Below are positions 21,124 to 42,092 of a DNA stretch of 50,582 bases, one piece after another. Origin of the DNA: a virus; IMG/VR virus record IMGVR_UViG_3300044718_000018, positions 1 through 50,582 of that record; one strand, written 5' to 3'. Below the pieces are notes generated by a model. That model was not told the origin of the DNA and did no database searches. It saw only the letters and a program-made list of their open reading frames with translations. How positions within the stretch are numbered: position 1 is the first letter of the stretch; every line of letters begins with the position of its first letter. A program made the position numbers and the translations under genes.

Positions 21124-21550
21124 TTTTCACCTCAAAAAATTTCATTTCCCTGCCAATCAATTCGCCGTCTCGGAGCGCGTCGCCCAGCAGAACTCCGTGC
21201 GGGATGTAGCTGTGAATAATGATTGGCCAGTCCACCACGATTGCGCCGTGAGAAAATGCGCGCCCGAATTTGAAGACAATGAAATCACCGGGCAGTGGCG
21301 ATTCTGTTTTCTCAACACAAAAAGGTTCAATCGTCTGAAGATACTTTTCTTCAGAATGGTGCAGGTGCCATTGCATGGAATAATCCGGCGGCACGAAATC
21401 AGCCGGAAGAATGCCGCACTCCTGATACACGGCCAGCGGAAACATGGCGCAATCCACGCCACAGCCTTTTACTTTGCCCATGTGGTGGTAGGGCGTGCGC
21501 AACCACTCTTTTGCTGCCTTGACCACTTGCGCGCGCTTATCGGCTGTCAG
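21107..21550 (-). CDS. NlpC/P60 tail-assembly protein (lambda K-like), CTG start proposed
   Basis: The catalytic triad region is visible: KGCGVDCAMFPL (Cys34 by CTG numbering), FSHGAIVVDW (His) and a following HSY. Such proteins are cysteine peptidases at the tail tip that cut peptidoglycan during infection. GTG 21526 is possible but has no ribosome site and drops eight residues that align with the usual N-terminus (ADKRAQVVKAAKEWLRTPYH). CTG 21550 has GGAG eight bases upstream and overlaps the DUF2163 stop as CTGA. 147 residues from CTG. Confidence 0.75.
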   Translation of the reverse strand: MTADKRAQVVKAAKEWLRTPYHHMGKVKGCGVDCAMFPLAVYQECGILPADFVPPDYSMQWHLHHSEEKYLQTIEPFCVEKTESPLPGDFIVFKFGRAFSHGAIVVDWPIIIHSYIPHGVLLGDALRDGELIGREMKFFEVKSGTTA

Positions 21551-22413
21551 ATTGCCGTCTCCGGAACAGGTATGTACGGGAAGCCCTCAAAGTTCACCAG
21601 ATTGGAAAACTTGTTCGTGCAGGTGGCCTGTGTTTTGTCGCAACCTGGATAAGCCGTGAACAAGTCGCCAGCACTGGGTGTGAACGGCAGCGGAGAATTG
21701 AAAGTGAACTGCTGCCCCAGATATTGCTTGACGGCTTTTACCAGTCCGGCATTTGCGCCGGTGGTAAAAACAAGCTGGCCGTTATCGTAATAGTCATCGG
21801 CTTTGGCAGAGAGTGAAATCAGTTTGTTGACCGTGCTTCCAGCTTGTACCGTGTTCGCTTCCGCGAAAGCTGCTTTGCTCAATCTACAGCGCGCATCAAA
21901 GAGAGTGTTTGTGCAGCCCGGCTGAAGAATGATTTGCGGCAACTGCATCGTCAGAAGTTCAGTACCGGAGTTCACTGTGATCTTGGCATAGCTCCTGCTC
22001 AATTCATCCACTGGCCCGACGAAGCCAGAGAAGCGGATCACCGTACCGATCTGCACGCCGGTTGCATCCATGAAGAGCCGCTCAACCTTGAAGGCAGCGC
22101 CATCAAATAGCCCAAGCCCGATGGCCTGAAGTATGGGAACGCCGTTCAGAAGATCAGAGAGGCTGGCCAGAATCGTAACTTCAATGGTGGAAACATCCAT
22201 ACCGATCTGCTCTTCAATGGCAGTGCGTGAGATGTCCGGAGGCCCGGTCAGGAACTTATTGCCCAGCACGGTAAGCGTAGTGTCCCATGTGGTGTATCTG
22301 AGCACCGTTCCGCCAACCAGAGTGATGGTGTAAAGGTCAGCCATGCGGAACTCAGTATTGTTGGCGAGGAACGTGATCAGGTTGTTGCCGCCGATGTTGG
22401 TGGGGGTCTTCAA
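21547..22413 (-). CDS. DUF2163 / BR0599-type tail protein (288 aa)
   Basis: The middle region (FSGFVGPVDELSRSYAKITV) and the C-terminal pattern (LVFTTGANAGLVKAVKQYLG ... LPFTPSAGDLFTAYPGCDKT ... NFEGFPYIPVPE) are diagnostic of the GTA hub-type protein family. It lies between DUF2460 and NlpC/P60 as in gene transfer agents and many siphophages. Forms part of the distal tail hub. Confidence 0.85.
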   Translation of the reverse strand: MKTPTNIGGNNLITFLANNTEFRMADLYTITLVGGTVLRYTTWDTTLTVLGNKFLTGPPDISRTAIEEQIGMDVSTIEVTILASLSDLLNGVPILQAIGLGLFDGAAFKVERLFMDATGVQIGTVIRFSGFVGPVDELSRSYAKITVNSGTELLTMQLPQIILQPGCTNTLFDARCRLSKAAFAEANTVQAGSTVNKLISLSAKADDYYDNGQLVFTTGANAGLVKAVKQYLGQQFTFNSPLPFTPSAGDLFTAYPGCDKTQATCTNKFSNLVNFEGFPYIPVPETAI

Positions 22414-22414
22414 T

Positions 22415-23086
22415 TTATTTCCTCACGCTGATTAGCTGCACTTCTTTGCACTCATAAAGCTGGTAATAGAAGTTGGAAAACTCAATTCCTTCACGCGTCC
22501 CGCTGGAGGCTGAAGAGTTGCTGCGGGCTGTGCCCAGATCGAAGCGGACACGATGCAGAAAAGTAAAATCTGCTGTGATGGCTGCGTTCAAAGCTGGTGC
22601 CACGGTGAAGGTAACGAGCCCCAGAGAAACGGTGTAATCCGTGGTTGGAGTTTTCTTTACCCCTGCCACATAGACCGTTACGCCCGCTGGATTCTGGCAT
22701 GCTTCCAGAAAGCCGCCGAAGTTACGAACAAGTTGAAAGTTGAGCGTAACGCCGTCGCCTATCCCTATCGGCTGGCCTGAAAAAACAGAGTCCTCTAAGC
22801 GTTGCGTGAGGTCGCTTTCATTCAAAAGGAAATCATCAAACTGTCCACCGCGCGAAAGGAAAAAGCCGACAAGCTGCTCCAGTGGAGTAGAGCCTGTATC
22901 ATCTCGAAACCGGGGATCATTTAAAAGGTATTCGTAAGTGAGAGTAAATTCCCAGATGGGATTCTGAAAGTTCTGGATTCTCACCTCGCGTCCGGCAAGC
23001 GAGATTTGAATATCGGTTGAGAGCGTAGGATTCTTAACCACTTCCCATCCCAGGCCACGAATTTTGGGGAAGAGAATATTGCTCAC
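22415..23086 (-). CDS. DUF2460 distal tail protein (223 aa)
   Basis: FPKIRGLGWEVVKNPTLSTD, then WEFTLTYEYL, GGQFDDFLLNE, DGVTLNFQLVR and the C-terminal RVRFDLGTARSNSSASSG are the DUF2460 signature. In gene transfer agents this is the distal tail protein (Dit-like), forming the hub ring under the tube. ATGA-type overlap with the tape measure. Confidence 0.85.
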   Translation of the reverse strand: MSNILFPKIRGLGWEVVKNPTLSTDIQISLAGREVRIQNFQNPIWEFTLTYEYLLNDPRFRDDTGSTPLEQLVGFFLSRGGQFDDFLLNESDLTQRLEDSVFSGQPIGIGDGVTLNFQLVRNFGGFLEACQNPAGVTVYVAGVKKTPTTDYTVSLGLVTFTVAPALNAAITADFTFLHRVRFDLGTARSNSSASSGTREGIEFSNFYYQLYECKEVQLISVRK

Positions 23087-25254
23087 TGGCCAAAGCCTTT
23101 TTTCTTGAGCACCTTTGCCACCTTATTCCCCAGCATATTGCTGTGCCGATCAATCACACTTTCGAAAGAAGCTGCATCCATAGCCTGAACATTGTGGTGA
23201 ACAACTACGGTTATTCCGCCTCCTGACCCGCTGTAAGCTGCGCCCTGTTTACTGGCTGGAATCACCGTTTCACCTTTGTGAAGATAGGCAAGTCCATCCT
23301 GGGGAACGTAGTTGGTGCCAACGTCGTAAGAGCCCATAGACTCAACAGCGATGAAGGCGGCAGCTGCGATGGGAGCGGCCAGGACAGGGCCAACATATTG
23401 CGATGCCCAATCGAAGGATTTCTTGGCTGCATCATAGGCGGCACGCATGCCGCTTTTTGCATAGTACGCAGCATCCACAGCCTCTTTTGTGGCTGCATGC
23501 GCAATCATCTCAACCAACTGGCGCGCCAGCGATGCGATAAATTTAGCGGCCATGTTGTCAGCCATTTTTGCCCACGCCTGCCCCATGGTTTCAGTCCCTT
23601 GCAAAATTCCAGTGGCAAAGGTGCTGAACTCAGAAGAGATGCCCTGCACCATTTTTTGATACTGGGCCTGCGTTGCCTTTGTCTGATCCGTTACAGACTT
23701 GGTCGCGACCAGATTCCCCTGGGCAACTATCTTGTCAATCTGCGCCTGAATTTCAGCCTTCTTCTTTACGTCGCCATCCCAGAGCGCAAAACGCAACTGC
23801 TGATAACTTCTTTCTATAGCCAGTTCTGTTTCTTTGGCACCAGCAATCAATTTAACTTCCTGCTGCTGGGTGATCTGGCCCCTTTCAAAGCGTTGCTCGA
23901 TTAACTGAATCTGAATATCGCTATTTGTTTTGGCGGTAGCAATCTGCCCCTTATAACTTTCGTCCCACGCCTCAAGCTGTTTTTCGCTGCCTTTGAGCGC
24001 GGCTTGGTTCTGTTTCTCGATGTCGGCAATTGCTTCTTTGCTGGCACGGTCCGCCGCTTCCGTCTGGGCCTTCTCTCCGGATTCAGCTTCCTTGCGGATG
24101 GCCTGACCAGCCTGGCCTAGAACGTCCTGCAGTTTGCGCAGTTGTTCCGCTGCTGATTCCGCGCCCAGTAAATCGGAATGCTTAGCAAGTTCGGCTTGAG
24201 TTTTGCCGAAATTGGTCAGCATGATCTGAAGGCTGCGAAGCGTTTGATCTCGCTTGTCGTATTCGTTATTTACGTTCTTGAGCTGGGCTTCTAGCCCCTT
24301 TTCTTCCTCCTTTAGATAGGACGTTTGCTTCGCAGCGTTTTTGTCCGCATCAATAAACCCTTGGATCGCGCTGGCCTTTGTCTGCTGTGTTTTGGTATTG
24401 GCAGCAATCTGGTCATTCAAATATTTCTGGTAAGCTGCCACCTGCGTATTCAGTTCAGCCTGAAATTCCGCAGTCTGTCCTTTATTGTTCTGCGCCTGCG
24501 CAAGACGAAGTTTGGTCAAGGTTTCATCGACCTGCCCCTGATACTCTTTTACCTTGCTGAGGATGTCATTGATTCCAGAATCGCCAAACAGCAGCTTATT
24601 AAAAAGCCCCTGCTCCTGACTGGTAAGGAGTTCGTTTTCTTTTCCAATGGCATCCTGAAATGACTTGATCAGCTCTTCTACGGCACGCTTGCCTTCCATC
24701 GCGGCAATTGCAACGCCATTCTGGGCTGGTTTGCGCTCCAGGGTGCTGATATGATCCTGCAGTTTGAGATTACTGATCTGTACAGATTCAGCTTGTTTAT
24801 CGAACGAGAGGGAGAGGTCGAGGCTTTCACGAACGGCCTTAGCCATCTTCTCGCTGTGTGAATCCATCTTTTCCCCGGCCTTAAAGATGGAATCAGCAAA
24901 AGAGATGATGGCCACAACAGGAAAAGCAAGAGAGAATGCAGCGCCAAGTAAAGGCAATTCAGCCAGCCAGCGCGCAACATGACGGTTGACGGCAATGCCA
25001 GTGTCTTCAAATGCCAGCTTTAAGCCCCCTACGGCCTCGCTAGAGCGGCCAACATGGGCACGCGTGGAATCTTCAAGTTCAGCAAGTCGCACTTCTAGCG
25101 CGGAAATCTGGGCAGACGTATCGGCTTGCAACTTTGCAAAAGCACCAGTTATGTCCGCAAGGGCCTTTTCGGTAGCTGCCGCTGCCGCGTCCATCGCGGT
25201 TTTTAATTGTGAACCGTCAAAAACCGCTCCGACTTGTATCAGATTATCTGGCAT
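23083..25254 (-). CDS. Tape measure protein (723 aa)
   Basis: Long coiled-coil protein with one hydrophobic patch near residues 90-120 (LPLLGAAFSLAFPVVAIISF) and a C-terminal Ala/Gly-rich region with hydrophobic turns (AQYVGPVLAAPIAAAAFIAV type). It follows the tail chaperones and precedes the distal-tail genes, the standard location. It sets tail length and probably helps DNA entry. At 723 residues a tail of roughly 100 nm would be expected by the usual 1.5 Angstrom per residue rule. Confidence 0.85.
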   Translation of the reverse strand: MPDNLIQVGAVFDGSQLKTAMDAAAAATEKALADITGAFAKLQADTSAQISALEVRLAELEDSTRAHVGRSSEAVGGLKLAFEDTGIAVNRHVARWLAELPLLGAAFSLAFPVVAIISFADSIFKAGEKMDSHSEKMAKAVRESLDLSLSFDKQAESVQISNLKLQDHISTLERKPAQNGVAIAAMEGKRAVEELIKSFQDAIGKENELLTSQEQGLFNKLLFGDSGINDILSKVKEYQGQVDETLTKLRLAQAQNNKGQTAEFQAELNTQVAAYQKYLNDQIAANTKTQQTKASAIQGFIDADKNAAKQTSYLKEEEKGLEAQLKNVNNEYDKRDQTLRSLQIMLTNFGKTQAELAKHSDLLGAESAAEQLRKLQDVLGQAGQAIRKEAESGEKAQTEAADRASKEAIADIEKQNQAALKGSEKQLEAWDESYKGQIATAKTNSDIQIQLIEQRFERGQITQQQEVKLIAGAKETELAIERSYQQLRFALWDGDVKKKAEIQAQIDKIVAQGNLVATKSVTDQTKATQAQYQKMVQGISSEFSTFATGILQGTETMGQAWAKMADNMAAKFIASLARQLVEMIAHAATKEAVDAAYYAKSGMRAAYDAAKKSFDWASQYVGPVLAAPIAAAAFIAVESMGSYDVGTNYVPQDGLAYLHKGETVIPASKQGAAYSGSGGGITVVVHHNVQAMDAASFESVIDRHSNMLGNKVAKVLKKKGFGQ

Positions 25255-25256
25255 TT

Positions 25257-25577
25257 TTATTTGTCTCTGTACACTGCTGGCAACGGTCCGCGCACTGAGC
25301 CGCCAAGGGCCATGACTTCACTGCGGAGTTCATCTGCCATGTTGGGCTGTTCAATTGATTTTCTTTTTTTACTGCGTTGCGGCTTCATGTGGACCGCCGC
25401 GAGAATGATATGTGCAGGCGGGTGATCGGCAAGATACTCCATCAGTTCGTTTACATCCCAGAGAGTGAGCGCGTCTACCTCTCTGGGCGTGTAATGAAAT
25501 GAGGCGGCGAGGTGGCCATAGAGGAAAGAAAACTCTATGCCGTCGCCGCTGGTGCTTCCCCCGGCGTGGCCTTTTTG
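25257..25577 (-). CDS. Tail assembly chaperone extension, made by -1 frameshift
   Basis: In the -1 frame the stretch after 25571 is open for 104 residues (EFSFLYGHLAASFHYTPREV, then LTLWDVNELMEYLADHPPAH) and has no start of its own near the beginning. Joined to the first 92 residues of the upstream gene it would give a fusion of about 196 residues, the counterpart of lambda gpGT, which binds tape measure and tail-tube protein. Stop at 25257-25259, two bases before the tape measure. Confidence 0.7.
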   Translation of the reverse strand, partial: QKGHAGGSTSGDGIEFSFLYGHLAASFHYTPREVDALTLWDVNELMEYLADHPPAHIILAAVHMKPQRSKKRKSIEQPNMADELRSEVMALGGSVRGPLPAVYRDK

Positions 25578-25846
25578 ATCCCAGAAATTTCAATAATCGC
25601 CCCGAAGCATGCAGTAAAATCTTCACTGTCAATGCCGTTTTCAAGCTGCTCTGATGTCATGTCCTGATGAACCTTGCGAACACTGCAAAGGACTATTGGC
25701 AAATATTTGAGGATTGCGCCAACGCCCATATTCTCATCTGGTGGAGTTTCTTTAAAGAGCGCGTCGAGTTGTCGGAGTTCGCCCAGATTGAGCGATGTAA
25801 AGGTAAGGTCGCCCATAGAAGTTTTGACGGTTTGCTGTTTCTTCAT
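25535..25846 (-). CDS. Tail assembly chaperone (lambda gpG-like), 103 aa
   Basis: MKKQQTVKTSMGDLTFTSLN followed by helices (ELRQLDALFKETPP; DSEDFTACFGAIIEISGIKK) fits the small tail chaperone just downstream of the tail-tube gene. Good ribosome site (AAGGAGGCAATAAA). A -1 frameshift at codons 91-92 would extend it. Confidence 0.75.
   Translation of the reverse strand: MKKQQTVKTSMGDLTFTSLNLGELRQLDALFKETPPDENMGVGAILKYLPIVLCSVRKVHQDMTSEQLENGIDSEDFTACFGAIIEISGIKKATPGEAPAATA
25571..25577 (-). promoter_or_regulatory. Candidate -1 programmed frameshift site
   Basis: C AAA AAG in the zero frame (codons 91-92 of the chaperone). The A-site Lys tRNA can re-pair with AAA after a -1 slip; P-site re-pairing is imperfect. 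The stop of the short frame lies about 36 bases downstream, as in other tail chaperone genes. Confidence 0.6.
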
Positions 25847-25878
25847 TTTATTGCCTCCTTGAATTTTGTGAAGTGGAA

Positions 25879-26631
25879 TTATTCGTTCGAGTAGATGTCG
25901 ATAACCTGGCCGCCAGCATTGGCGAAACAGGAAAAATCAAATTCGGGAATAATGAAGTCTTCCTGCTTGGTGGCAATCGAAAGCTTGGAAGCCACTGCCT
26001 GATACAACAGCACGTTCATCTGTTGCAAGTTGTAATTCGTGGTCAGAAGCGCCTGAAACGTGGGAGCGAAGCCCATGAATTGATTTGTAATATTCAACTG
26101 AGTCCCGGCAGCCGAAAGCGTGTACATGTAACTGATCAGTACCGCCGTGCCTACATCGGTTGCGTTAAAGGTGTAAATACCGGTTGACGTGGCTACTGAA
26201 TACTGACCTACGGCTGGCGCTGAAGCCACCTTAACTAGTGGGATACCGGTAGCCTGGTAAATCACGCCCTGATCTCCGCGAGAATCATTCACAAATACGC
26301 CAGAGCTGGGCGGCGTGATGGTGACTGATGTGGCAACAGTATGCAACTCGTCAACTGCCGTGGCCTTCATGCCGGTGCCCATGGTCTGTCCAAAGAACAG
26401 ATCATTGAGCATCTTCCCATTGATGCGTGCGAACTTTGCTTTTCCGGTGAGTTTGATTTTGCCGCGAGCAACAGCCTCTGGAAACTGCTTCTGGCCATAC
26501 AGTTCCTTGATGTCGCCTGAGATGTCCAGTGAAACATCCTGCAAGGTGCCAAATTTAATGGGCGTTGGATTGGCAGCTGTGTTGCCACTGACCGGAAATC
26601 CAAAGAGTGAACCTGAGCCAAACTCAAACAT
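25879..26631 (-). CDS. Major tail (tube) protein (250 aa)
   Basis: Position between the tail terminator-like gene and the chaperones, and a beta-rich sequence: GTLQDVSLDISGDIKELYGQ, then KIKLTGKAKFARINGKML. Residues 131-170 (VGQYSVATSTGIYTFNATDV) form a beta module similar to one in the tail-tip protein. This protein polymerises into the tail tube. Confidence 0.8.
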   Translation of the reverse strand: MFEFGSGSLFGFPVSGNTAANPTPIKFGTLQDVSLDISGDIKELYGQKQFPEAVARGKIKLTGKAKFARINGKMLNDLFFGQTMGTGMKATAVDELHTVATSVTITPPSSGVFVNDSRGDQGVIYQATGIPLVKVASAPAVGQYSVATSTGIYTFNATDVGTAVLISYMYTLSAAGTQLNITNQFMGFAPTFQALLTTNYNLQQMNVLLYQAVASKLSIATKQEDFIIPEFDFSCFANAGGQVIDIYSNE

Positions 26632-26653
26632 GATGTTTCTCCTGAACTAGAAT

Positions 26654-27103
26654 TTAAGAACCTTGAACCAAAATCACTGGTATTACAGCCATTGCCATTG
26701 CGCCGGCAACGTTTTCCACGATTTCTACCTTGCCATCAATGCGCGCGGTGTAAACCTTGCCGCCGAGCGTCTGCGCAATGCCGCGAGAGACGTTAGGCAG
26801 TGCATTCTCTACCGCATCAAGCAAGGCGTTTAATTCAGTGGACGGCACCACGCCGGGATCTGTTGAGCCCGTTGTGTAGAGAACCAAATCAACCTTGGCA
26901 TCCCACTTGACGGGCAGCCCAGCAATCTTTTGTGTGGTTGTGCTGACTTCACCGGTCTGTACCTGAAAGAGCGCGGGCCGGTCTGGTGGCGCAACCTGAT
27001 CCGGTGGCAACCAGTGGCGGCTGCTGGTTTTTACAGCGGAGCCAAGTGCGGTCTGCCATTGCGTGAACAATGCGGCATAAAGTGTTTCGCGGGGAACGAT
27101 CAT
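26654..27103 (-). CDS. Tail terminator-like / tail completion protein (149 aa)
   Basis: MIVPRETLYAALFTQWQTAL, ALFQVQTGEVSTTTQK, WDAKVDLVLYTTGSTDPGVV and helical PSTELNALLDAVENAL match the alpha/beta pattern of lambda gpU-like proteins preceding the tube gene. It would cap the tail and join it to the head. Confidence 0.65.
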   Translation of the reverse strand: MIVPRETLYAALFTQWQTALGSAVKTSSRHWLPPDQVAPPDRPALFQVQTGEVSTTTQKIAGLPVKWDAKVDLVLYTTGSTDPGVVPSTELNALLDAVENALPNVSRGIAQTLGGKVYTARIDGKVEIVENVAGAMAMAVIPVILVQGS

Positions 27104-27310
27104 TTACATGTACACGTTCGGCGCGAAAGTTCCGCCGGTTAGCCCTGTTCTGTAAACAGGATCGCGCTTCCAGCGCAATACGTTTGCGACAAGCTCACCA
27201 GTTGGCGAGAGGATCACCGTTTTGTTCTGACGTTGCGCAAGGTATGCGACAACCTGTCCACACTCGCCGCGAATTGGCCGTCTCTGCGGCTGCTGAATAA
27301 AACCAATCAT
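27104..27310 (-). CDS. Small head-tail region protein (68 aa)
   Basis: MIGFIQQPQRRPIRGECGQV, then KTVILSPTGELVANVLRWKR. Beta-rich, basic; stop precedes the following start by one base. No family recognised; a head-tail joining role is inferred from position. Confidence 0.55.
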   Translation of the reverse strand: MIGFIQQPQRRPIRGECGQVVAYLAQRQNKTVILSPTGELVANVLRWKRDPVYRTGLTGGTFAPNVYM

Positions 27311-27325
27311 TCCGTGTCTCCCTGC

Positions 27326-27787
27326 CTATGCTGCTATGGCCTTGTCTACTGCTTCCTGAATCGCTGCCATGAGGTCAGGCCGTACATCGTTCAGTGCTGG
27401 CCCAAGGTAAGGCCGTGGCGGGATGTAGGCAGCGTGGTTTCGTCCTGCATAGCCGCCATATTCTTGAATCCGCGCGTAAGGAGTAGCAGCGCCCCAAATC
27501 TGAGTTGCTGTGGTTTCAGTTTCGGAATAGCCCGGCGCAACGGATGCCGTGATTGAACGCGTGAGTGTGCCAGTTCGAGAAAACAAAATGCTGCCGGTAT
27601 TGCGTGCGCCTTTTTTTACCGATTGTCCAGCAGCAAAGTATTTCGTAACGCTGATATTTGCGCCCTTGTAGCCCCATAGCTTGAGAGCCTGCTTTATGTT
27701 GGCGAATATGCGCGGAGAAATAGCTGAGAGATAGAGCACTACTTTCTGATCGCTCTGCTGAACGATGGAGAAGGTTACGCCGCTCAC
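27326..27787 (-). CDS. HK97 gp10-like head-tail protein (153 aa)
   Basis: The C-terminal pattern YARIQEYGGYAGRNHAAYIP then PRPYLGPALNDVRPDL is typical of the gp10/minor-capsid family (GxxYAxxxExG ... PxRPFLxPAL). It acts in the neck between connector and tail. Overlaps the connector gene by 4 bases. Confidence 0.75.
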   Translation of the reverse strand: MSGVTFSIVQQSDQKVVLYLSAISPRIFANIKQALKLWGYKGANISVTKYFAAGQSVKKGARNTGSILFSRTGTLTRSITASVAPGYSETETTATQIWGAATPYARIQEYGGYAGRNHAAYIPPRPYLGPALNDVRPDLMAAIQEAVDKAIAA

Positions 27788-28353
27788 AGAGCCAATCTCC
27801 GATACTGGTTAAAGACATTCAGGCTTCGCTTTGGTACATCGCTCATATCGAAACTCACCGTTACCTGTCCGCCCATAGAATTTGATTTCTCGCCAATGTG
27901 ACCGCGCTGGCGATAGGCCAGAGCAAACGATTCGATGGCCGCCTGCTTCAAGTCCAGCGGTACAGATGTGTAGCCAGCCGTGTAAGTCAGGACAATGTTT
28001 TGCAGGCCGCGATTAAAGCGGAAGCCGCGCAACATGACACGGCGCTTATCAAAAAGAAATCCTGGCACAAAAGGAGCAGACGAAACGGGTAACGATGCGC
28101 CATCAACAGAGACGGCGGTTACAGAGATAATCGGATAAAAGTGAGGCAACAGCCGGTCCGCGCCATTACCGTCATAGGTTTCAGTCAGATCGCCAATAGC
28201 GTCGGCCAGAATGTGAGCGCGGCTCAGGTATTGCAGAATCTGCGCACTGCCGTTGGTAATCAAGCCCTGAAGCGCAGCATCCGTATTAGTCAGGCCGGGA
28301 AGCCATGCTTGTAAGTCCGCAACTGTACAGAAATCATCAGGACCAGTGGCCAT
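27784..28353 (-). CDS. Head-tail connector, gp6-like (189 aa)
   Basis: Helices with CTVADLQAWLPGLTNTDAAL and ITNGSAQILQYLSRAHILAD, then TETYDGNGADRLLPHFYPII and a beta arm LQNIVLTYTAGYTSVPLDLK match the HK97 gp6-like adaptor family. It forms the ring under the portal. Confidence 0.75.
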   Translation of the reverse strand: MATGPDDFCTVADLQAWLPGLTNTDAALQGLITNGSAQILQYLSRAHILADAIGDLTETYDGNGADRLLPHFYPIISVTAVSVDGASLPVSSAPFVPGFLFDKRRVMLRGFRFNRGLQNIVLTYTAGYTSVPLDLKQAAIESFALAYRQRGHIGEKSNSMGGQVTVSFDMSDVPKRSLNVFNQYRRLAL

Positions 28354-28394
28354 CGGTCAACCTTTCCGGTATGTTGAGGGATCAAAATAAACAT

Positions 28395-28464
28395 GCGGGG
28401 CGCAATGAAGGAGGGACATTGCAGCCCCGCGATTCAGCAGTCTCCGGGCTGGAAAGCTGCTGAA
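28395..28464 (-). terminator. Two hairpins after the capsid gene, probable partial terminator
   Basis: First hairpin on the minus strand: TTCAGCAG/CTGCTGAA (28433-28440 with 28457-28464), four bases after the capsid stop. Second: GCGGGGC-GCAATG with CATTGC-A-GCCCCGC (28395-28407 with 28417-28430), a 12-13 bp stem with one bulge, followed by ATGTTTATTTT. This could damp transcription so capsid is made in excess over neck and tail proteins. Confidence 0.65.
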
Positions 28465-28467
28465 GAC

Positions 28468-33740: not shown

Positions 33741-33746
33741 TTATGG

Positions 33747-33752: not shown

Positions 33753-33768
33753 CGCAATTGAGGGTACA

Positions 33769-34446
33769 ATGCCAAGATCGCTAACGGACGAACAAGTTAA
33801 AGAGTTGCATCGCGAATATATGGCTGGTGCCAGCAGCACTGAACTCGCCAATAAAACCGGACTGGCCAACTTGACCATACGCAGAAATTTCCTTCGCCTC
33901 GGACTAACTGTACGCTCACACTCTGATGCGCGCAAGAACATGTGGAAATCGGTAACGCCAAAAGAAAAGGCACACTATGTTAAAGCTGCGCATGATAAAG
34001 TTCGCGGCCAAAAACGGTCGATGGATGAACTATGCAAACGCGCACTCACTCGCGAAAAATGGCCTACTGCCTTCAGTGACCAAGAAAAACATCTGGCGAG
34101 AAGCTTAAAGCTTTCCACGCTTGAGCACTCTTTCCAAAAAGCTTGCGGGCCGTTCAATATTGATTTTGCCGTTGAAGGCAAGGTCGCCATTGAAGTATTC
34201 GGCGGCAACTGGCACGGAACCGGGCGACATGCGCAGCGATTCAAGCGCCGTAGTGAATGCCTACTCAAAGACGGTTGGCACATTATCATCATCTGGCTAG
34301 TGAAGCAGCGCCACAAACACTGGCCAGCAATTCTCCGCAATATGTACGCACTGATTGACGAATTAAAAAACGATAAGACTCCATCAATCAGAACTATCCT
34401 TGCTGACGGAAAATACAAGGGTACAGGCGCAGTTAGGATGGAATAG
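33769..34446 (+). CDS. EDxHD/Vsr-like homing endonuclease (225 aa)
   Basis: N-terminal DNA-binding part with an HTH (SLTDEQVKELHREYMAGASS ... TIRRNFLRLGL). The C-terminal nuclease core has STLEHSFQKACGPFNIDFAV, GKVAIEVFGGNWHGTGRHAQ and LLKDGWHIIIIWL: Glu119, Asp132, Glu142 and His149 fit the EDxHD family related to Vsr and PD-(D/E)XK nucleases. It is the only plus-strand gene within 28 kb of minus-strand genes, and its 3' end overlaps the Mu F-like gene by 63 bases antisense. Likely a free-standing mobile gene. Confidence 0.75.
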   Translation: MPRSLTDEQVKELHREYMAGASSTELANKTGLANLTIRRNFLRLGLTVRSHSDARKNMWKSVTPKEKAHYVKAAHDKVRGQKRSMDELCKRALTREKWPTAFSDQEKHLARSLKLSTLEHSFQKACGPFNIDFAVEGKVAIEVFGGNWHGTGRHAQRFKRRSECLLKDGWHIIIIWLVKQRHKHWPAILRNMYALIDELKNDKTPSIRTILADGKYKGTGAVRME

Positions 34447-35145
34447 AGGAGCATCGTCGCCGCTGGAAAAGTCCTCATCCAGTCCGATTTCTCCATCATC
34501 TTCATTGTCGCCGCAAATGTCACAATCATTATCTTCTGAGCCGCGAACTACTGATTTTACCAGATCAAGGCCAGATGCTTTTGCACCTTCGAGTGCCCCG
34601 GCCATGTGAGCGTTGCCAATCTCAGTCCGCGCTATCATCTCCGCGCGATCAGCCGAAAAAGCCTCACTGTCTTCAATGGCTGATTTTAATTCGTTAACGC
34701 CGTCCGCGTTTTGGATGGCATCGCGCACCAGCACTTGCAAGCGTTCCCGTGTGGTTTCTGTGATGCCGGTTACCAGTTCCGCGCCGGATTCAGCAGCATA
34801 CTTTACTGAGTCCTCATTAACCAGATCAAATACGTCTTGATCCGTGATGCCCAGCTTGCCCAGAATCACTTGCGCCGTCTGCTCGTATGCCCCGCCCAGA
34901 TCATCTGCCAACTCTTCTGAGATGATGTCCCATGCTTCCATGTCAGTCGAATCTACAATAAGCTTGGCTTTCGCTTCGGGATCGTCGGCCTTCTTTGTGG
35001 CCGATTCGTAAGCCTTCGATACCTGTGCCGCAATCTTTTTGCCCTGCTCTGCAAAGAACTTCGTCAGGTAAGCCGTGATGTTGCTGACGGACTTACGCTG
35101 TTCTTTTGATAGGTCACTGACGGGATGGACGCTGACCGGCTTCAC
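34384..35145 (-). CDS. Mu F-like head morphogenesis protein (253 aa)
   Basis: The C-terminal signature is clear: RAEMIARTEIGNAHMAGALE, then CDICGDNEDDGEIGLDEDFS and PLFHPNCACTLVF. Helical N-terminus (YLTKFFAEQGKKIAAQVSKA). It follows the portal as usual and is a minor head protein, possibly injected. Complete despite antisense overlap with the homing endonuclease. Confidence 0.85.
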   Translation of the reverse strand: MKPVSVHPVSDLSKEQRKSVSNITAYLTKFFAEQGKKIAAQVSKAYESATKKADDPEAKAKLIVDSTDMEAWDIISEELADDLGGAYEQTAQVILGKLGITDQDVFDLVNEDSVKYAAESGAELVTGITETTRERLQVLVRDAIQNADGVNELKSAIEDSEAFSADRAEMIARTEIGNAHMAGALEGAKASGLDLVKSVVRGSEDNDCDICGDNEDDGEIGLDEDFSSGDDAPLFHPNCACTLVFSVSKDSSD

Positions 35146-35345
35146 GATTGCGCTCTCAATGAATATCTCTTAACGCGATCCCACCACTCACCCCATTCCG
35201 CAAAGTGCCATCCACTCCATTGCTTTGTGTTGAGGCACGATAGGCGGTCGTTGCCGTCGATGTAAAACTTCCATCCGTCAGGGAACACCCTCAGGCGCGT
35301 AGGTAAGCAGGAGAAAAGCAATCTTTTGAGCTTGCTCATCTTCAT
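35142..35345 (-). CDS. Hypothetical 67-aa protein between portal and Mu F gene
   Basis: Overlaps both neighbours by 4 bases. MKMSKLKRLLFSCLPTRLRV has a basic, partly hydrophobic start; Trp-rich middle (WSGWHFAEWGEWWDRVKRYS). No family recognised. Confidence 0.6.
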   Translation of the reverse strand: MKMSKLKRLLFSCLPTRLRVFPDGWKFYIDGNDRLSCLNTKQWSGWHFAEWGEWWDRVKRYSLRAQS

Positions 35346-36877
35346 TGACCGCGTGGCTCCGTGTACCCACGAAACGCCTTGCGCGCATATTTCTTTTTCG
35401 GTGGCTTGGCTGGTGGCTTGCCGTCTTCGTGATCTTCATGCGGCGCTATTGGCTTACCGTCCGGGCCGACTTGCTGCACGGTTGGCGGTTCTGGTGGATT
35501 GTCGGCATTCTCAATCACCTTATCCACCGGAACAGCGCCCATTGCTGTGTAAATCATGTTGCGCGCCCCTGTGCCGTTTGGCAAAGGTTCATAGCCCAGC
35601 GTATCTGCGGCCTGGTCAATCGTCATGGAACCGTTGCGGAGATATTTGTCGATAATCTCAGCCTGCTCTACCGGGTTTTCGTCCTTCGCGGCAACAAAGG
35701 AAAACTCAATGTCATTCCAGCCAAAATACCGCAGCACCAGCGTGTTGACCGCGTCTTCAAACCACAGCATGATTGGCGATAAGCCTTCTGCCGCTGCCTG
35801 CTCAACTGAAGTCTCAGCCGTTGCCCGGTTCATCTGCGTAATAAACGGTTGTGGGCTCAAGCTGAAGCCATAGCAAACAATTCTCGCTAGCCATTCGTCC
35901 AGCGGGTCTTTCAACTCCGGGGCGCGGGTAAACGTAAATTCGCCGGCCTCTGGGATAAACGTAATCTTCCGGCGCTGGGCAAGGTTGCCGGAAAGCGAAG
36001 CGTCAAACCAATCCTGAAATTCCTTGATCTGATCAGCACCCCATGATGCCGGGGTTTGTGCGATGGCTTCCGGTATGTTGCCTTCCGTGTAATAGTTCAG
36101 CAGATGGATTTGCCGACGCAGACCAATATTGATGGTCATGATGATCTGCTCAACTGGCGAGTATCCGAAAAACTTGTGCGTGCGGAGATTGCGCGGCTTA
36201 AAAAGTAACTGTGAGCGCATGAAATCTACCGCCGGCAAACCTTTGATGATCTGCTGGTAGGCAACGGCTGGCTCTGCTGGCGTGCGGCCCTGCGTGTCAA
36301 TCTTGCGAGCAATGGTCGCGCCGTCAATTACGTCCAGCCCGTAAAGCTTTTTGCCCTTTGTCCATAGCGTGCCGTTTGCGTCTGTAGTCGGAACAATTGC
36401 AGCCGCATCAATCACCAGCATTTCCTCAAGCAGCATGCGCGCCCATTCCGCCCATGTGTGCTCTTTGTCAGGCGAAGCAAAGAAGTCTATCAGTTGTGCG
36501 ATGCGGTCATCAGATCCTGCCCGTGCTTTGTATTCCCCGTTTTTCTCGTTGACGTTACGCTTTACCGTGAACTGCCATTGCATTTTGGCGAGCTGGTCTT
36601 TGCGTGTTTCAATGCACAGGCGTACCAAGTCGAAAGAATCAGCCAGGTTCCGCATCTGGTGGTAGCTGACCGACTCCAGATTGTGGGGCTGGATGTTGAG
36701 GTTGTAGCCAGTCGGATAATCAAACTGGCGTGGTGGCGTTCCTGATGGCGCACTGATGCCTTGAGGGGAATCAGGCCCAAAGAACGCGTTGAGCGCAGAG
36801 CGGAATCGCGAGGCCACGCTGCGCCCTTGTTCAATCTTTGCGCCCCCAGCGGGAGTGTTAACTGGTTGATTAGGCAA
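35342..36877 (-). CDS. Portal protein (511 aa)
   Basis: RNLADSFDLVRLCIETRKDQ, YGLDVIDGATIARKIDTQGR, LLFKPRNLRTHKFFGYSPVE and LARIVCYGFSLSPQPFITQM follow the conserved order of HK97/SPP1-type portals. The Pro/Lys-rich end (KPPAKPPKKKYARKAF) is probably flexible. It forms the dodecameric DNA channel and docks terminase. Overlaps TerL by 8 bases. Confidence 0.85.
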   Translation of the reverse strand: MPNQPVNTPAGGAKIEQGRSVASRFRSALNAFFGPDSPQGISAPSGTPPRQFDYPTGYNLNIQPHNLESVSYHQMRNLADSFDLVRLCIETRKDQLAKMQWQFTVKRNVNEKNGEYKARAGSDDRIAQLIDFFASPDKEHTWAEWARMLLEEMLVIDAAAIVPTTDANGTLWTKGKKLYGLDVIDGATIARKIDTQGRTPAEPAVAYQQIIKGLPAVDFMRSQLLFKPRNLRTHKFFGYSPVEQIIMTINIGLRRQIHLLNYYTEGNIPEAIAQTPASWGADQIKEFQDWFDASLSGNLAQRRKITFIPEAGEFTFTRAPELKDPLDEWLARIVCYGFSLSPQPFITQMNRATAETSVEQAAAEGLSPIMLWFEDAVNTLVLRYFGWNDIEFSFVAAKDENPVEQAEIIDKYLRNGSMTIDQAADTLGYEPLPNGTGARNMIYTAMGAVPVDKVIENADNPPEPPTVQQVGPDGKPIAPHEDHEDGKPPAKPPKKKYARKAFRGYTEPRGQ

Positions 36878-38612
36878 GCCCCACCTGCACCCCAGCGGCC
36901 GCGCTGCTCCATTTCATCTCAATATCCAGCCGGTTTACTTCGGCTAATGCGGCTTCACTCCCAATATCCAATAATGCCTGCCTGACTTCCTGGTATTGGC
37001 GTGCGCTGCATGAAATCCTTCCACCATTGGCCATAGTTTCTTTCGCAATATTCGTTAGGCCGGTTTCCGGCACGCGCTTGCCATCTCTTTTGGGAACGCC
37101 CTTAACCTTGTCAGCGGCTTCTTTCAGTTGGCTGGCTTGCGTGCGATAGAAGTCCATGATGCCCGCGCCCATTTTGTGCCGAATATAAATCAATGCTTGA
37201 CTGGTTGCGTCCACGTCATCGTCATGCGCAGCTTTTGGGAAAGCGCAGAGGTTATGAATGTAGTCATCCATCCAAGGAACGTTAAACACCTGAGGATCAG
37301 GCAGTTCAATAGAGCCCGCCTCAAATAGAGGCGATATGCCCTGCAAGCGTGAAAATTTGTCGCCTTCAGGATTGACCGCAACCACGCCAGACAATTCCTT
37401 CCGCAGTTCACTGATGATTGCAGGGCCATTGGCCTTATCTTCAATCAAGATTGCGTGGGCTTGTGGAAACTTGGCGCGGCAACTCTTTATGGCATCCTTC
37501 GTGGGGCCAAAGTCTAACTGGTCATATGTACGATGCGGCAACATCAAAAGCTTGCCACCGGCCTTTCCCCAAACTTGTCCAGCCACGTAATCATTGGTTG
37601 CGCCACCCTTGAACGTGCAATCCCAGCTCTGCACCATTAAGTCAAATTTCTCAGGTAATTCCCTATAAAACCGAATCCAATTGCGCTTAATGATTCCGCC
37701 TTCAATAGCGGAAGGGCGTTGCTGATAGAGCGATGCCCACACCTGGCTGCCCACGGCAGTCTTGATTGCGTTTAATTGCTCAAGAGGGAAACGTTCAGCA
37801 TGCAAAGGCTCACCGTTTTTGCGGTGCTTTTCGTCTTTTTCAGCTATGGCAGGGTAGGTGACCACTTTCCATTTGTCCCCACCAACCAATTCACGCTGAA
37901 GTAAGCGCCCAGCCAAATCATCTTCATGCCAGCGCGTAAGCACGATAAGTATGCCGCCACCAGATTCAAGCCGCGTGTAGGCTGTGGACGTGAACCATTC
38001 CCAAACCTTATCGCGATAAACCTCCGAATACGCCTGCTCAGCATCCTTGATCGGGTCGTCCACGATGAGGATATTGCAACCCATGCCCGTAATGCCACCA
38101 CCGACGCCAGCAGAGCGGTAACTTCCGCGATGGCCAACAATTTCAAAAATCTCAGAGTTGCGGAGAAATGATCCATTGGCAATTGTGCGTATGTTCTTTC
38201 CGAAAAGCTCAGTCCCCGGAAATATCTCACCATATTGAGGCGCTTCTATGATCCGCTGTACATCTCTATTCATTCTCGATGCAAGATCAGCGCCGTATGA
38301 AGTACTGATTATCTGTAGCTCAGGGTTGCGACCAAAAGCGTATGCCGGGAATCGCCGGGAAACCAACTCGCTTTTTCCGTGGCGAGGCGGCATAAATAAC
38401 ATAAGCCTTGGGCTCGCGCCAGCTTCAACGGCGCGAAAGAACTCATCGAGTTCGGAGCATATCTCTTTGTGTACCCATCCAGCCCTGTAGCGAGAGTTGG
38501 TAAAGCGAGTAAACGACTCGATACTTCGGCGCGCACGTTCAGCCTTAATTTGCTGGAGGGGCGGGAGTTGCTGTCTCGACAAGATATTCGAGTTCGGCGA
38601 GCTGCTCATCAT
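36870..38612 (-). CDS. terL: Terminase large subunit (580 aa)
   Basis: ATPase: MPPRHGKSE (residues 74-82) as Walker A, ILIVDDP (181-187) as Walker B, VLTRWHEDD as coupling motif. Nuclease: QSWDCTFKGG (Asp331), LIEDKANGPA (Glu391/Asp392) and AHDDDVDA (Asp464-468), the three acidic clusters of the RNase H-like fold. Full length. It pumps and cuts phage DNA at the portal. Starts inside the small-subunit gene (68-base overlap). Confidence 0.9.
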   Translation of the reverse strand: MMSSSPNSNILSRQQLPPLQQIKAERARRSIESFTRFTNSRYRAGWVHKEICSELDEFFRAVEAGASPRLMLFMPPRHGKSELVSRRFPAYAFGRNPELQIISTSYGADLASRMNRDVQRIIEAPQYGEIFPGTELFGKNIRTIANGSFLRNSEIFEIVGHRGSYRSAGVGGGITGMGCNILIVDDPIKDAEQAYSEVYRDKVWEWFTSTAYTRLESGGGILIVLTRWHEDDLAGRLLQRELVGGDKWKVVTYPAIAEKDEKHRKNGEPLHAERFPLEQLNAIKTAVGSQVWASLYQQRPSAIEGGIIKRNWIRFYRELPEKFDLMVQSWDCTFKGGATNDYVAGQVWGKAGGKLLMLPHRTYDQLDFGPTKDAIKSCRAKFPQAHAILIEDKANGPAIISELRKELSGVVAVNPEGDKFSRLQGISPLFEAGSIELPDPQVFNVPWMDDYIHNLCAFPKAAHDDDVDATSQALIYIRHKMGAGIMDFYRTQASQLKEAADKVKGVPKRDGKRVPETGLTNIAKETMANGGRISCSARQYQEVRQALLDIGSEAALAEVNRLDIEMKWSSAAAGVQVGLA

Positions 38613-39000
38613 TCAATCTCTTAAGGTCAACTACTTCATGTTGTATCGGGCCACCGTCTGGGCCGCTAACTTCATGCTTGTCCCTCTGGCCGAGGTATTG
38701 CTTACCAAGCCAAATAAGCATCGTCACGCTTGCGGATTCTTTATCTTTGCTGCCTTCGTTGGCCACCTTTAATTGCTTGCGCCGAAGGCTCATTTTCATT
38801 TCTTCGCGGCCTTTTTCTATGACATCCGCAAAATTGCGCTCCAGGGTGTCTACTGAGCACTTGCAAATCTTCGCAATCTCAATCATGGTGCAGCCAATCC
38901 CAGCCAAGTCCTCGATAAGTTCGGGGTTGAGGTCAAGCTTGGGACGGCCTACCGGGTTGGTATTTTCTATGCTTTCTTCGTTATGCACGTTTTTATTCAT
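38545..39000 (-). CDS. terS: Terminase small subunit (151 aa)
   Basis: GRPKLDLNPELIEDLAGIGC then TMIEIAKICKCSVDTLERNF forms an HTH typical of TerS DNA-binding domains; helices KGREEMKMSLRRKQLKVANE and SASVTMLIWLGKQYLGQRDK are conserved in this family. Ends in an acidic tail. Recognises the packaging site and loads TerL. A cluster of TGCATAAA repeats lies just upstream. Confidence 0.85.
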   Translation of the reverse strand: MNKNVHNEESIENTNPVGRPKLDLNPELIEDLAGIGCTMIEIAKICKCSVDTLERNFADVIEKGREEMKMSLRRKQLKVANEGSKDKESASVTMLIWLGKQYLGQRDKHEVSGPDGGPIQHEVVDLKRLNDEQLAELEYLVETATPAPPAN

Positions 39001-39022
39001 ACAAGTACGTGTTTTAGGGTAC

Positions 39023-39055
39023 TTTATGCACTCACCTACTGCATAAATGCATAAA
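39023..39055. promoter_or_regulatory. TGCATAAA repeat cluster upstream of terS
   Basis: TGCATAAA occurs in tandem at 39040-39047 and 39048-39055, and inverted at 39023-39030. The array sits 23-55 bases before the terS start in a 103-base non-coding gap, the likely place for a late promoter or packaging-site element. No convincing -35/-10 pair is visible. Confidence 0.45.
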
Positions 39056-39103
39056 TATGCTGTGTTTCCTTACCCTGCAATCTGCAACTGAGGGAAGCCC
39101 CGG

Positions 39104-39811
39104 TTACTTCTTTCCCGTGAATGGGATAGAGATGCCCAGAATTTTTGCCTTGGGAACTGCGATCTTGGCTTTCTCCTGCGTGCTGCAAAGTTTATTCCAG
39201 TGCTTTGCAATGTCACGCGCTGAGAATTTGGGCTTGACGGAAGTTTTGATTACCTGCCCTGCCGGAGTTCCTTCAATGGCGATCATGTCTGTGCCCGAGA
39301 TGTGCCAGCCGTAGATGGCCGGAAGTTGCGTTTGCAGATTGAGTGCTACTGCCGCTGGCTGCTGGTTGACCAGGATGACGATGTTCTGCGCGATCAGGCC
39401 GATCAGGCCAGCGAAGCCGTTGACGATGCCTGCGGTCTTTGCGTCTTTGATTCCCACTGTTGAAACAATGCTCTGCAAGTTCGTCTGAATATCCAGCCAT
39501 GCCGCGTTGATCTTTTGCAGCACAGTGGGATTCGGGACTGCTGGGTTATAGCCGGCGATCAGTGACTCCAGTAGTTTGCCGTCTGCCGCAATCAGTGCCG
39601 CTGCTGGCCCGATGGCTGGCGCGTATTCCGGCGCAACCAACAGAGTGAGCCCGGTTGCCATCTGTGCGATCTGCGGAATCTGCTGGTCCAGGGTATCAAT
39701 CACCTGCACGATCTGGGCTTGTGAGCATCCGGCCATGGGGACAATGAGGCTGAAGATGGCGAGGAACAATGCCAATGAGCTGAGTAAACACTTATTTGCT
39801 GACGTTTTCAC
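39104..39811 (-). CDS. Lipoprotein (235 aa)
   Basis: MKTSANKCLLSSLALFLAIF continues to a lipobox MAGC (Cys29). The mature part is helical and rich in Ala/Ile/Gln (IVQVIDTLDQQIPQIAQMAT), with a region GLIGLIAQNIVILVNQQPAA. No family recognised. Located between the packaging and lysis-type genes. Confidence 0.65.
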   Translation of the reverse strand: MKTSANKCLLSSLALFLAIFSLIVPMAGCSQAQIVQVIDTLDQQIPQIAQMATGLTLLVAPEYAPAIGPAAALIAADGKLLESLIAGYNPAVPNPTVLQKINAAWLDIQTNLQSIVSTVGIKDAKTAGIVNGFAGLIGLIAQNIVILVNQQPAAVALNLQTQLPAIYGWHISGTDMIAIEGTPAGQVIKTSVKPKFSARDIAKHWNKLCSTQEKAKIAVPKAKILGISIPFTGKK

Positions 39812-39850
39812 GTTGAATAATCTCCTGAAATTGAATTTGTCTTGAATGAG

Positions 39851-40045
39851 TTAGGCCGGGTTGACGGTGGCGAGAATGCCTTCTTTTTCTGTCTTCAGTG
39901 CTTCGATGGAGGCATCAACTTCTGCATTCGCCGCCTCGAAAGCCTTCTGTGCATCTGCCGTGATCTGCCGCTTCTGCAATAGATCGGAAGCCGCGCTGTT
40001 CATTACATCCACTGCCGCTTTTGCTCTGTCGCTTGCTGTGCTCAT
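39851..40045 (-). CDS. Coiled-coil protein (64 aa)
   Basis: Almost entirely one charged helix (MSTASDRAKAAVDVMNSAAS ... ADAQKAFEAANAEVDASIEA). AGAGGAGC gives a ribosome site. No known function. Confidence 0.6.
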   Translation of the reverse strand: MSTASDRAKAAVDVMNSAASDLLQKRQITADAQKAFEAANAEVDASIEALKTEKEGILATVNPA

Positions 40046-40223
40046 GAAATTTGCTCCTCTGAAATTAAAGATTTTGCTGGGCTTTCCTCATCCCAGCGCG
40101 ACGGCCCCTCAGGCTGTACTAGCGTTTTGACGTACCATGATTCCTAGAATCCTGTCGTTTCAAACCGCTGAAGTGATCTAATTCACTTCCATCTGAATGC
40201 CGCTACCCGGCCTGTTATTGAAC

Positions 40224-40415
40224 TTATTTAGCGGGAACTCCGCCGTCCGGGTGTACTCCGCTTGTGTCCGCTGCTTTGTGGGTCGCCAGTGCGCTCAAAA
40301 TTCCGCCACCAGTACCGACAACGCTGCTGTACTTTCCAAATGCTCCGTTGGCCGCGAGTCCGGTGATTGCTGCTCCCACCCACGCCAGAATCTTTGCCCA
40401 TGTGTTCTTTGTCAT
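40224..40415 (-). CDS. Candidate holin (63 aa)
   Basis: One clear hydrophobic helix (WAKILAWVGAAITGLAANGA) and a second weakly hydrophobic Gly-rich segment (SSVVGTGGGILSALATHKAA), with polar ends. Size and layout fit a small holin; this is by position and hydropathy, not homology. The adjacent upstream 178-base gap (40046-40223) holds only a weak 6-bp stem-loop at 40170-40189. Confidence 0.5.
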   Translation of the reverse strand: MTKNTWAKILAWVGAAITGLAANGAFGKYSSVVGTGGGILSALATHKAADTSGVHPDGGVPAK

Positions 40416-40439
40416 CGCGTTATTCGTCCCATCCTTGTT

Positions 40440-40631
40440 TCATTTGGTTCCCTTCACAATCTTGATTGGCGCATCCTCTGAGCTGCCATCCCGTACCACC
40501 ATGGTTTCGCCTACGCCCAGCCGGTCTATTTCCGCTTGCGCTTTCTCGCGTGAATCGAAGTTGGTAAAAACCAGATAAGCCGCTGCTGGCGGTATCGTGA
40601 TTCCGTCTTTAGGGGATACGTGGAAGGTCAT
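40440..40631 (-). CDS. Hypothetical 63-aa protein
   Basis: MTFHVSPKDGITIPPAAAYL then VFTNFDSREKAQAEIDRLGV. Small alpha/beta domain. ATG 40631 is taken rather than an upstream GTA-rich extension that overlaps the preceding reading frame. Confidence 0.55.
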   Translation of the reverse strand: MTFHVSPKDGITIPPAAAYLVFTNFDSREKAQAEIDRLGVGETMVVRDGSSEDAPIKIVKGTK

Positions 40632-40639
40632 AAGTTTTC

Positions 40640-40768
40640 TTAAATGCTTTCCGCAGGTTGAGCAGCAACCCGCGCCAGTTTTGGATTCGTCATCTGGAAC
40701 CATCCGGCAGTACAAGTTTTGCTATTCCAGCCTTTTGTTTGCGGCCACTCCCCGAGAGGAATGGTCAT
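40640..40768 (-). CDS. Possible 42-aa protein
   Basis: ATG 40768 to TAA 40640: MTIPLGEWPQTKGWNSKTCT then AGWFQMTNPKLARVAAQPAE. Composition is natural and Trp-rich, but the ribosome site is weak. The segment 40769-40912 upstream contains only a 26-residue ORF. Confidence 0.35.
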   Translation of the reverse strand: MTIPLGEWPQTKGWNSKTCTAGWFQMTNPKLARVAAQPAESI

Positions 40769-40912
40769 GCTTACGGCGCTGCCGACTTCACCCTCTGCTG
40801 ACTTCCAACGCTCTGAACATTGGCGGCCCTATGGCGCGTTTTCGGACTTCAAAGCCTTGCGGCTCCATCCCGGCTAACTGCCACAACCGTTACGTCTGCT
40901 TTTTGCGGAAAC

Positions 40913-41107
40913 CTATTTCGCGACGAGGGCTCTAGCTTCTTTGTGGGTGGCCCTGAATGCCTGAAACTGAATGAAATTGCGCCCGCGCTTATCTCGCACA
41001 ATTCGAAAATTCATCCGATGCAGCAGCCCACAATCGCAGCACTGCATGATGTAATTCTTCCGGCGGGGCTGAACCCACTCTCCCGGCTTCACCTGAGTGC
41101 ACTTCAT
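40913..41107 (-). CDS. Zinc-ribbon-like protein, copy 1 (64 aa)
   Basis: KPGEWVQPRRKNYIMQCCDC followed by GLLHRMNFRIVRDKRGRNFI is a small phage family with a CCDCG zinc site. A close paralogue (copy 2) lies at 41892-42092 beyond the hydrolase gene. ATGA-type overlap with the hydrolase. Confidence 0.65.
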   Translation of the reverse strand: MKCTQVKPGEWVQPRRKNYIMQCCDCGLLHRMNFRIVRDKRGRNFIQFQAFRATHKEARALVAK

Positions 41108-41886
41108 GCGCTCGCCGCCTGCTTCTTAGCCAGAAAGCCGCATACCACTTCCCAGCACGCCCCTGATCTGAAATAGTCGCCATGCAGATCAACTGGATTC
41201 AGCTCTGCTGGTAGCAAGCCAATACAGTTAACCGATTGGCAGTTCTCAGGTGCATGTCCCGCGCCCACCAAGCCAAGCCTTGCGCCAAGGTGAATAATTC
41301 CTGAGCCCAGCAACGCGCCATCCGCCGGGCAGTACATCACCAGAACTTTGTTGCTCATCTCTGCGATGTTTGAGGTATTCAGCGCATCAAAGGGAACGTC
41401 TGCCGCCACCATCACAAGTTTGTCCACACACGGCGCTGTGCCGGCGGATTCCAGGGCTTTCTGTAACAGGAAATTGCCCATGCTGTGAGCAATTACGTTC
41501 GGGCATTCCAGATCCCGCAGGCATTGCAGCAAGTCTGTTGCGCTGCGCTCTGCTTGCACGCGATCCTCAAGGTATTCGAGAATGTTGCCCTGAGATGGCC
41601 ACGAATAGCCGACGAGCGTTACATCTGGGCCCAGTCCATCGAATACAGCCTGCATCACGTCCATATCTCGCTGCCACGATTCGTTGAAGCCGTGAATGAA
41701 AAGAACGACTGGCTTGCCTTGGGCCTTGATGTCCGCAAGTGCGATCGATCGATCTACGGGCATCCAGTCGATTGTCTGATCGAAAGGCTTACCCGGGGCG
41801 CTCCACCATGTATTCCCAAAGGCGTTACGCTCTGAGCTGAATTGTCCCGGCTGGTACTTCCGGTTGGTACAGAGAAAGATGCTCAC
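41104..41886 (-). CDS. DUF900-type alpha/beta hydrolase (260 aa)
   Basis: VVLFIHGFNESWQRDMDVMQ (oxyanion strand), GYSWPSQGN, then VIAHSMGNFLLQKALE with nucleophile Ser, MVAADVPFDAL (acid turn) and NPVDLHGDYFRS with His. Matches the DUF900 esterase/lipase fold. In a lysis-type neighbourhood it could cut envelope lipids or esters, as LysB does in mycobacteriophages; there is no signal peptide. Function inferred. Confidence 0.7.
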   Translation of the reverse strand: MSIFLCTNRKYQPGQFSSERNAFGNTWWSAPGKPFDQTIDWMPVDRSIALADIKAQGKPVVLFIHGFNESWQRDMDVMQAVFDGLGPDVTLVGYSWPSQGNILEYLEDRVQAERSATDLLQCLRDLECPNVIAHSMGNFLLQKALESAGTAPCVDKLVMVAADVPFDALNTSNIAEMSNKVLVMYCPADGALLGSGIIHLGARLGLVGAGHAPENCQSVNCIGLLPAELNPVDLHGDYFRSGACWEVVCGFLAKKQAASA

Positions 41887-41891
41887 GGAAG

Positions 41892-42092
41892 TTAGAATTT
41901 CCCACCCTTGGTGCGATGTTTTATGCGGAATGCCTGCATGAGAACACGTGCTTTACCCTCGCTATCAATCCTCACGCGAAAGTTCATGCGATGGACTAGG
42001 CCGCAATCACAGCAAGCCAGCAGATAGCCTTTCATTTGCGGCTGCACCCACTCTCCCGCTTTCACCTTCTTGAACTTCTTTGGAATCTTCAG
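41892..42092 (-). CDS. Zinc-ribbon-like protein, copy 2, CTG start proposed
   Basis: KKVKAGEWVQPQMKGYLLAC then CDCGLVHRMNFRVRIDSEGK is clearly homologous to copy 1 at 40913. CTG 42092 overlaps the previous stop as CTGA and has AGAGG 8 bases upstream. The alternative GTG 42065 would give 57 residues but has a poor ribosome site. 66 residues from CTG. Confidence 0.55.
   Translation of the reverse strand: MKIPKKFKKVKAGEWVQPQMKGYLLACCDCGLVHRMNFRVRIDSEGKARVLMQAFRIKHRTKGGKF

Follow-up and report, generated by a model that had tools for sequence, protein, structure and literature searches.

Probable CTG start codons at two CTGA gene overlaps of a tailed phage

Two minus-strand gene junctions of a phage genome raise the question of whether a gene can begin with CTG where its start codon overlaps the stop codon of the preceding gene. 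The window, by which we mean the whole stretch analyzed, spans one viral record of 50,582 bases from end to end. The phage is of the tailed type and carries genes for terminase, portal, head protease, tape measure, hub and tail. CTG starts are already known but very rare: among annotated bacterial starts CUG makes up 0.024%, and its expression in an E. coli reporter reached 0.86% of that obtained with AUG, compared to 58% for GUG and 30% for UUG (PMC11497404), while reconstructed AUG-to-CUG switches number 2 in 61,358 (PMC5622118). There is good documentation of reinitiation where stop and start codons overlap as ATGA or TGATG (Huber et al. 2019, PMC6728339).

The initial annotation had placed a CTGA on the minus strand at 21550-21547 and at 42092-42089. 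This is confirmed by the sequence, since at both positions the upstream gene terminates at the TGA and the downstream frame (hereafter gene 1 and gene 2, respectively) begins with the CTG, giving the overlapping stop and start codons of termination-reinitiation pairs.

21547..21550, minus strand: CTGA stop/start overlap 1 (CTG 21550-21548, TGA 21549-21547), read directly from the sequence; start region homologous in 158 relatives.
42089..42092, minus strand: CTGA stop/start overlap 2 (CTG 42092-42090, TGA 42091-42089), read directly from the sequence; ATG of homologue L096 at the aligned codon.

The ribosome sites, which had been described as correctly spaced, are indeed found as GGAG (21562-21559) 8 nt before the first CTG and AGAGG 7 nt before the second. 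The preceding stop in the CTG frame lies 13 codons upstream for gene 1 (21589) and 26 codons upstream for gene 2 (42170), with no ATG, GTG or TTG in between in either case, and the first canonical codon downstream of CTG is a GTG at 21526 (codon 9 of gene 1) and at 42065 (codon 10 of gene 2). The upstream proteins do not force the use of CTG, because a C-to-A change at either site would create ATGA without altering the residue encoded upstream (ATC to ATA and GCC to GCA, respectively). Predicted mRNA folding around the two junctions was not unusual (z 1.1 and -0.05).

As the tetramer CTGA is present in 522 copies in the window, its frequency is useless as evidence, and weight was placed on the reading frames instead. 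Accordingly, every NTGA stop/start junction was given a coding score and kept if a coding signal was present on both sides. Twelve junctions of the window were kept, namely six ATGA, four GTGA and two CTGA, the latter being exactly the two reported. The same scan of six related phage records (140 kb) kept 24 junctions (15 ATGA, 7 GTGA, 1 TTGA and 1 CTGA), among which there was no lone CTGA, as the single case has an ATG two codons later.

The reading that best accommodates the comparisons described below, and which we consider fairly probable, is initiation at CTG at both junctions. Genes 1 and 2 would be translated from CTG, read as fMet, within a four-base overlap with the preceding gene; initiation would be helped by a good Shine-Dalgarno site located inside the coding sequence of the upstream gene, and ribosomes finishing that gene would presumably reinitiate at the CTG.

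Gene 1 and its surroundings comprise the following features:

21547..22413, minus strand: baseplate/tail hub protein upstream of gene 1, 288 aa, ending in PETAI before its stop (Phage_phiJL001_Gp84_N and Phage_BR0599).
21107..21550, minus strand: gene 1, putative NlpC/P60 tail peptidase, 147 aa counted from CTG (phrog_329, Pfam and structural model).
21524..21526, minus strand: GTG (Val9), rejected as a start; an internal Val codon common in relatives.

The hub gene matches its two Pfam families with E values of 4.6e-31 (Phage_phiJL001_Gp84_N) and 2.9e-25 (Phage_BR0599) as well as phrog_778, and a PETxx C-terminus likewise precedes the NlpC gene in most homologues. Gene 1 matches phrog_329 (E 5e-11) and Pfam NLPC_P60 (E 1.8e-4, 21.9 bits, below the cut-off of 23), and its AlphaFold2 model (pLDDT 93.7), in which the first helix spans residues 3-15 and is confidently predicted, matches PDB entries for NlpC/P60 enzymes, for example 8i2d (E 1.2e-6). 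D33-C34, H101 and H113 are invariant in 41 sequences, and the window protein keeps C34, H101 and H113. The predicted fold and the catalytic Cys/His residues are thus those expected of an NlpC/P60 (C40) tail-tip peptidase. In view of these retained residues and of the short tree branch on which the protein lies (0.14), gene 1 is without sign of decay. Its closest relatives come partly from other viral contigs and partly from genomes of Acidobacteriaceae and further Acidobacteriota, where they probably belong to prophages; for this reason Acidobacteriota is probably the host phylum.

To define the N-terminus, we located the conserved W.xTP motif in 159 distinct homologues, including the window, and listed the canonical starts at least 9 codons before it. 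Such a start is available at least 9 codons before the conserved Trp in 158 of the 159, the window being the only exception. The usual junction is a four-base overlap of the hub stop, mostly after PETxx, with the NlpC start (ATGA in 58, GTGA in 10 and TTGA in 4 homologues, cases with a second ATG not being counted). At the position of the CTG, a 66% identical relative (L002) has GTG within a GTGA overlap, its upstream ORF being a different one, and L012 and L013 have ATG; in L025 the overlap is TTGA, with a spacing after GGAG equal to that of the window. The initial annotation had also proposed that CTG restores the N-terminal residues expected of an NlpC/P60 protein. This holds, in that translation from CTG would include the nearly invariant R6, located just before GTG 21526, and the complete helix 3-15.

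For the second junction, the features are as follows:

42089..42493, minus strand: DUF5675 protein upstream of gene 2, 134 aa, ending in TEAEA before its stop (Pfam PF18925, E 1.3e-28; phrog_1501).
41892..42092, minus strand: gene 2, 66 aa protein with the motif EWVxPxxKxYLxxCCDCGLVH; relatives L092-L171 in viral contigs.
40913..41107, minus strand: paralogue of gene 2, with its start ATG at 41107 in an ATGA overlap.

Gene 2 has no family match in Pfam or PHROG, and none of its relatives was found in the records holding the nearest NlpC relatives. The alignment of L096 (MKLPKRYHSPKAGQWVQP) with gene 2 (LKIPKKFKKVKAGEWVQP) is gapless and places the ATG of L096, which lies in a TGATG overlap, exactly at the CTG, so that the residue aligned to CTG is Met, an exact alignment provided by one homologue only. 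A further homologue, L099, reaches further upstream and has PKKFKKV in common with gene 2; as this stretch lies almost wholly upstream of the GTG, the region between CTG and GTG looks like protein. The similarity to a paralogue "at 40913", which had been put forward in favor of the CTG, proved to be a partial argument. The paralogue exists, but it runs from 41107 to 40913 and its start is therefore at 41107. The codon equivalent to the GTG of gene 2 is internal, after the ATG, in the paralogue and in L095, whereas the start of the paralogue comes four codons later than the CTG position and hence agrees only roughly with a start at CTG. Two other start codons were considered for gene 2 and rejected: GTG 42065, at which no homologue examined begins, and an AUU (42086), since the ATG of L096 aligns with CTG and not with ATT. 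As a separate observation, short proteins with the CCDCGLVH motif (40913-41107 and 41892-42092, both minus strand) occur in many viral contigs and have no Pfam or PHROG entry.

An alternative is that translation starts at the downstream GTGs (21526 and 42065) and that the CTGA overlaps are coincidental. GTG is a normal start codon which standard gene finders would pick, as did the ORF list for gene 1, but annotation habit alone is no guide, because the RepFIB rep gene, whose CTG start was proven by a CTG to CTC change, is usually given a wrong start in annotations, a GTG located 14 codons further on (PMC11983097). Like rep, genes 1 and 2 combine a CTG that follows a good ribosome site with a later GTG in the same frame; they differ from rep in that their CTGs share bases with the upstream stop codon and are predicted as starts from comparison. 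We consider starts at the GTGs improbable, as none of the 158 gene 1 homologues depends on a start so late, relatives have the GTGs as Val codons inside the gene (for gene 1, a GTG is found at -7 or -6 from the Trp in 65 of the 159 homologues), a start at 21526 would lose R6 and half of helix 3-15, and neither GTG is preceded by a good ribosome site. Homologues beginning at these GTGs, which the initial annotation had named as a refutation of the CTG starts, were not seen among those examined.

How the first CTG may have arisen is suggested by the nearest relatives. In L172, from an Acidobacteriaceae genome, the hub gene closes with PETAI-TAA, after which the sequence continues A ATG GCG CTC ACT ACA GAA AAG (MALT...), whereas in the window PETAI is followed by a TGA lying within CTG ACA GCC GAT AAG; compared to L172, about 11 nt are missing at the junction, the part that holds the old stop and the ATG. 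In L015, L017 and L174 the junction reads ATG CAx CGA CTG AC, and altogether the position of the gene 1 CTG is an internal Leu codon after ATG in seven near relatives (L014-L017 and L172-L174). Hence, an internal Leu codon was likely promoted to start codon by a deletion of about 11 nt, which we infer, rather than observe, because the tree leaves the order of changes open (open forks).

These comparisons also bear on the suggestion of the initial annotation that CTGA is a variant of the ATGA coupling used throughout the genome, and they do not support it. A scan for PETA[IVFL] followed by CTGA retrieved further NlpC genes in the CTG frame, all with an ATG directly after (CTGATG, a TGATG overlap), and the other CTGA cases in the homologue set (L049, L084, L179 and L180) have an ATG two codons later. 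In total, an in-frame CTGA occurs in 10 other NlpC homologues, and in each of them ATG follows one or two codons on; a lone CTG is thus avoided at the hub/NlpC junction, and CTGA is no recurrent variant of the overlap in this gene family, in which the window stands alone. Since the nearest relatives carry the CTG codon as a Leu codon inside the gene, the CTGA of gene 1 looks like the accident of a small deletion rather than a variant in use, as judged from the sequences. A pattern scan for the hub motif PETA-x-NTGA followed by a TxExR-type start returned one record, with ATGA. Independently of this, the hub/NlpC junctions of L009, L193, L278, L279, L296, L297 and others were seen to alternate between NTGA (4-base) and TGATG (1-base) overlaps, and in these records the GGAG ribosome site is embedded in the conserved codons for PET at the C-terminal end of the hub.

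A third gene had been noted as having only CTG available:

11761..12006, plus strand: gene 3, zinc-ribbon-like protein (CxxC...CxxC), 81 aa from CTG 11761-11763, in the stop-to-stop frame 11758-12006.

This statement was borne out, as a stop is present two codons before the CTG, no canonical codon occurs before the first CxxC, and CTG is the only near-cognate codon in that stretch; CTG would thus be the only option left. Gene 3 is not a stop/start overlap, as no ORF of at least 45 aa ends at its TGA, and no clear ribosome site was found. Its matches were confined to Acidobacteriaceae genomes, with none in viral contigs and phages or in the records holding the nearest NlpC relatives. Both CxxC are conserved in seven such relatives, six of which have an ATG 9 to 14 codons before the homology. 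Gene 3 may be a decayed gene. In one relative, L255 (~1480-1740), a stop lies five codons upstream of the homology, and the stretch up to the first CxxC contains neither ATG nor GTG nor TTG.

Across genes 1, 2 and 3, then, no ATG, GTG or TTG is able to give the conserved N-terminus. Against initiation at CTG, CUG performs very poorly as a start, the codon is an internal Leu in the seven gene 1 relatives, other phages with CTGA at the hub/NlpC junction have an ATG close by, and exact support for gene 2 comes from one homologue. It is also conceivable, although in our view unlikely, that the start codons were misread (A as C in the contig) or lost by a recent inactivating change, leaving no working start. 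A single C-to-A would indeed give ATGA at either site with a silent effect upstream, a lone CTG is otherwise avoided at the hub/NlpC junction, and gene 1 differs from L172 by the ~11 nt at the junction. However, the same type of error would be needed in three separate genes of one 50 kb contig, the difference from L172 is an indel and as such unlikely as a read error, and gene 1 shows nothing abnormal in its frame, catalytic residues or branch length, with the long structural genes open throughout. Production of fusion proteins by -1 ribosomal frameshifting from the upstream gene is scarcely credible: each downstream frame is in the -1 position with respect to the gene before it, with overlaps of 13 and 26 codons, and the tail chaperone pair of the same phage probably frameshifts, but the gene 1 overlap contains no slippery heptamer and that of gene 2 only two imperfect ones, and relatives have ordinary start codons at the equivalent junctions.

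Initiation at CTG would share with the ATGA/TGATG coupling of Huber et al. the four-base stop/start overlap and a Shine-Dalgarno site within the upstream gene, and would differ from it in the start codon and in that coupling is here presumed; CTGA or GTGA was not found in the text of that study (PMC6728339). Among phage genes, ORF10 of Bacteroides phage phiB124-14 is likewise annotated with a CTG start (PMC3338817), which, in the portion of that report drawn on here, is an annotation only and not tied to an overlap.

If CTG initiation is true, gene finders allowing only ATG, GTG and TTG would mis-annotate or miss CTG-start genes, and stop/start overlaps would be a place to search for hidden CTG starts, with homologues as a check. 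A further reading, which we consider unlikely, is that either reinitiation at an overlapping stop relaxes start-codon discrimination, or CUG starts are better tolerated by the phage and its host, probably one of the Acidobacteriota, than by other bacteria. The former would mean that CUG, though almost inactive in de novo initiation, suffices for a virion protein; the latter would account for the presence of three CTG-only genes in a single 50 kb record. The junction offers a compact test case for whether reinitiating ribosomes are less strict on the start codon than freshly recruited ones, a strictness that bears on the rarity of CUG starts (0.024%, PMC11497404).

Two other regions of the window, both on the minus strand, deserve mention. 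Directly ahead of the tape measure gene, 25257-25846 holds two small overlapping ORFs, the second of which lacks a start codon close to its beginning and shares with the first an overlap extending past C AAA AAG / G GGG GAA; the pair resembles the usual tail chaperone G/GT -1 frameshift pair, and the phage probably frameshifts there. At 47170-49407, a single protein of 745 aa joins a helicase domain to an N6/N4 DNA methylase domain.
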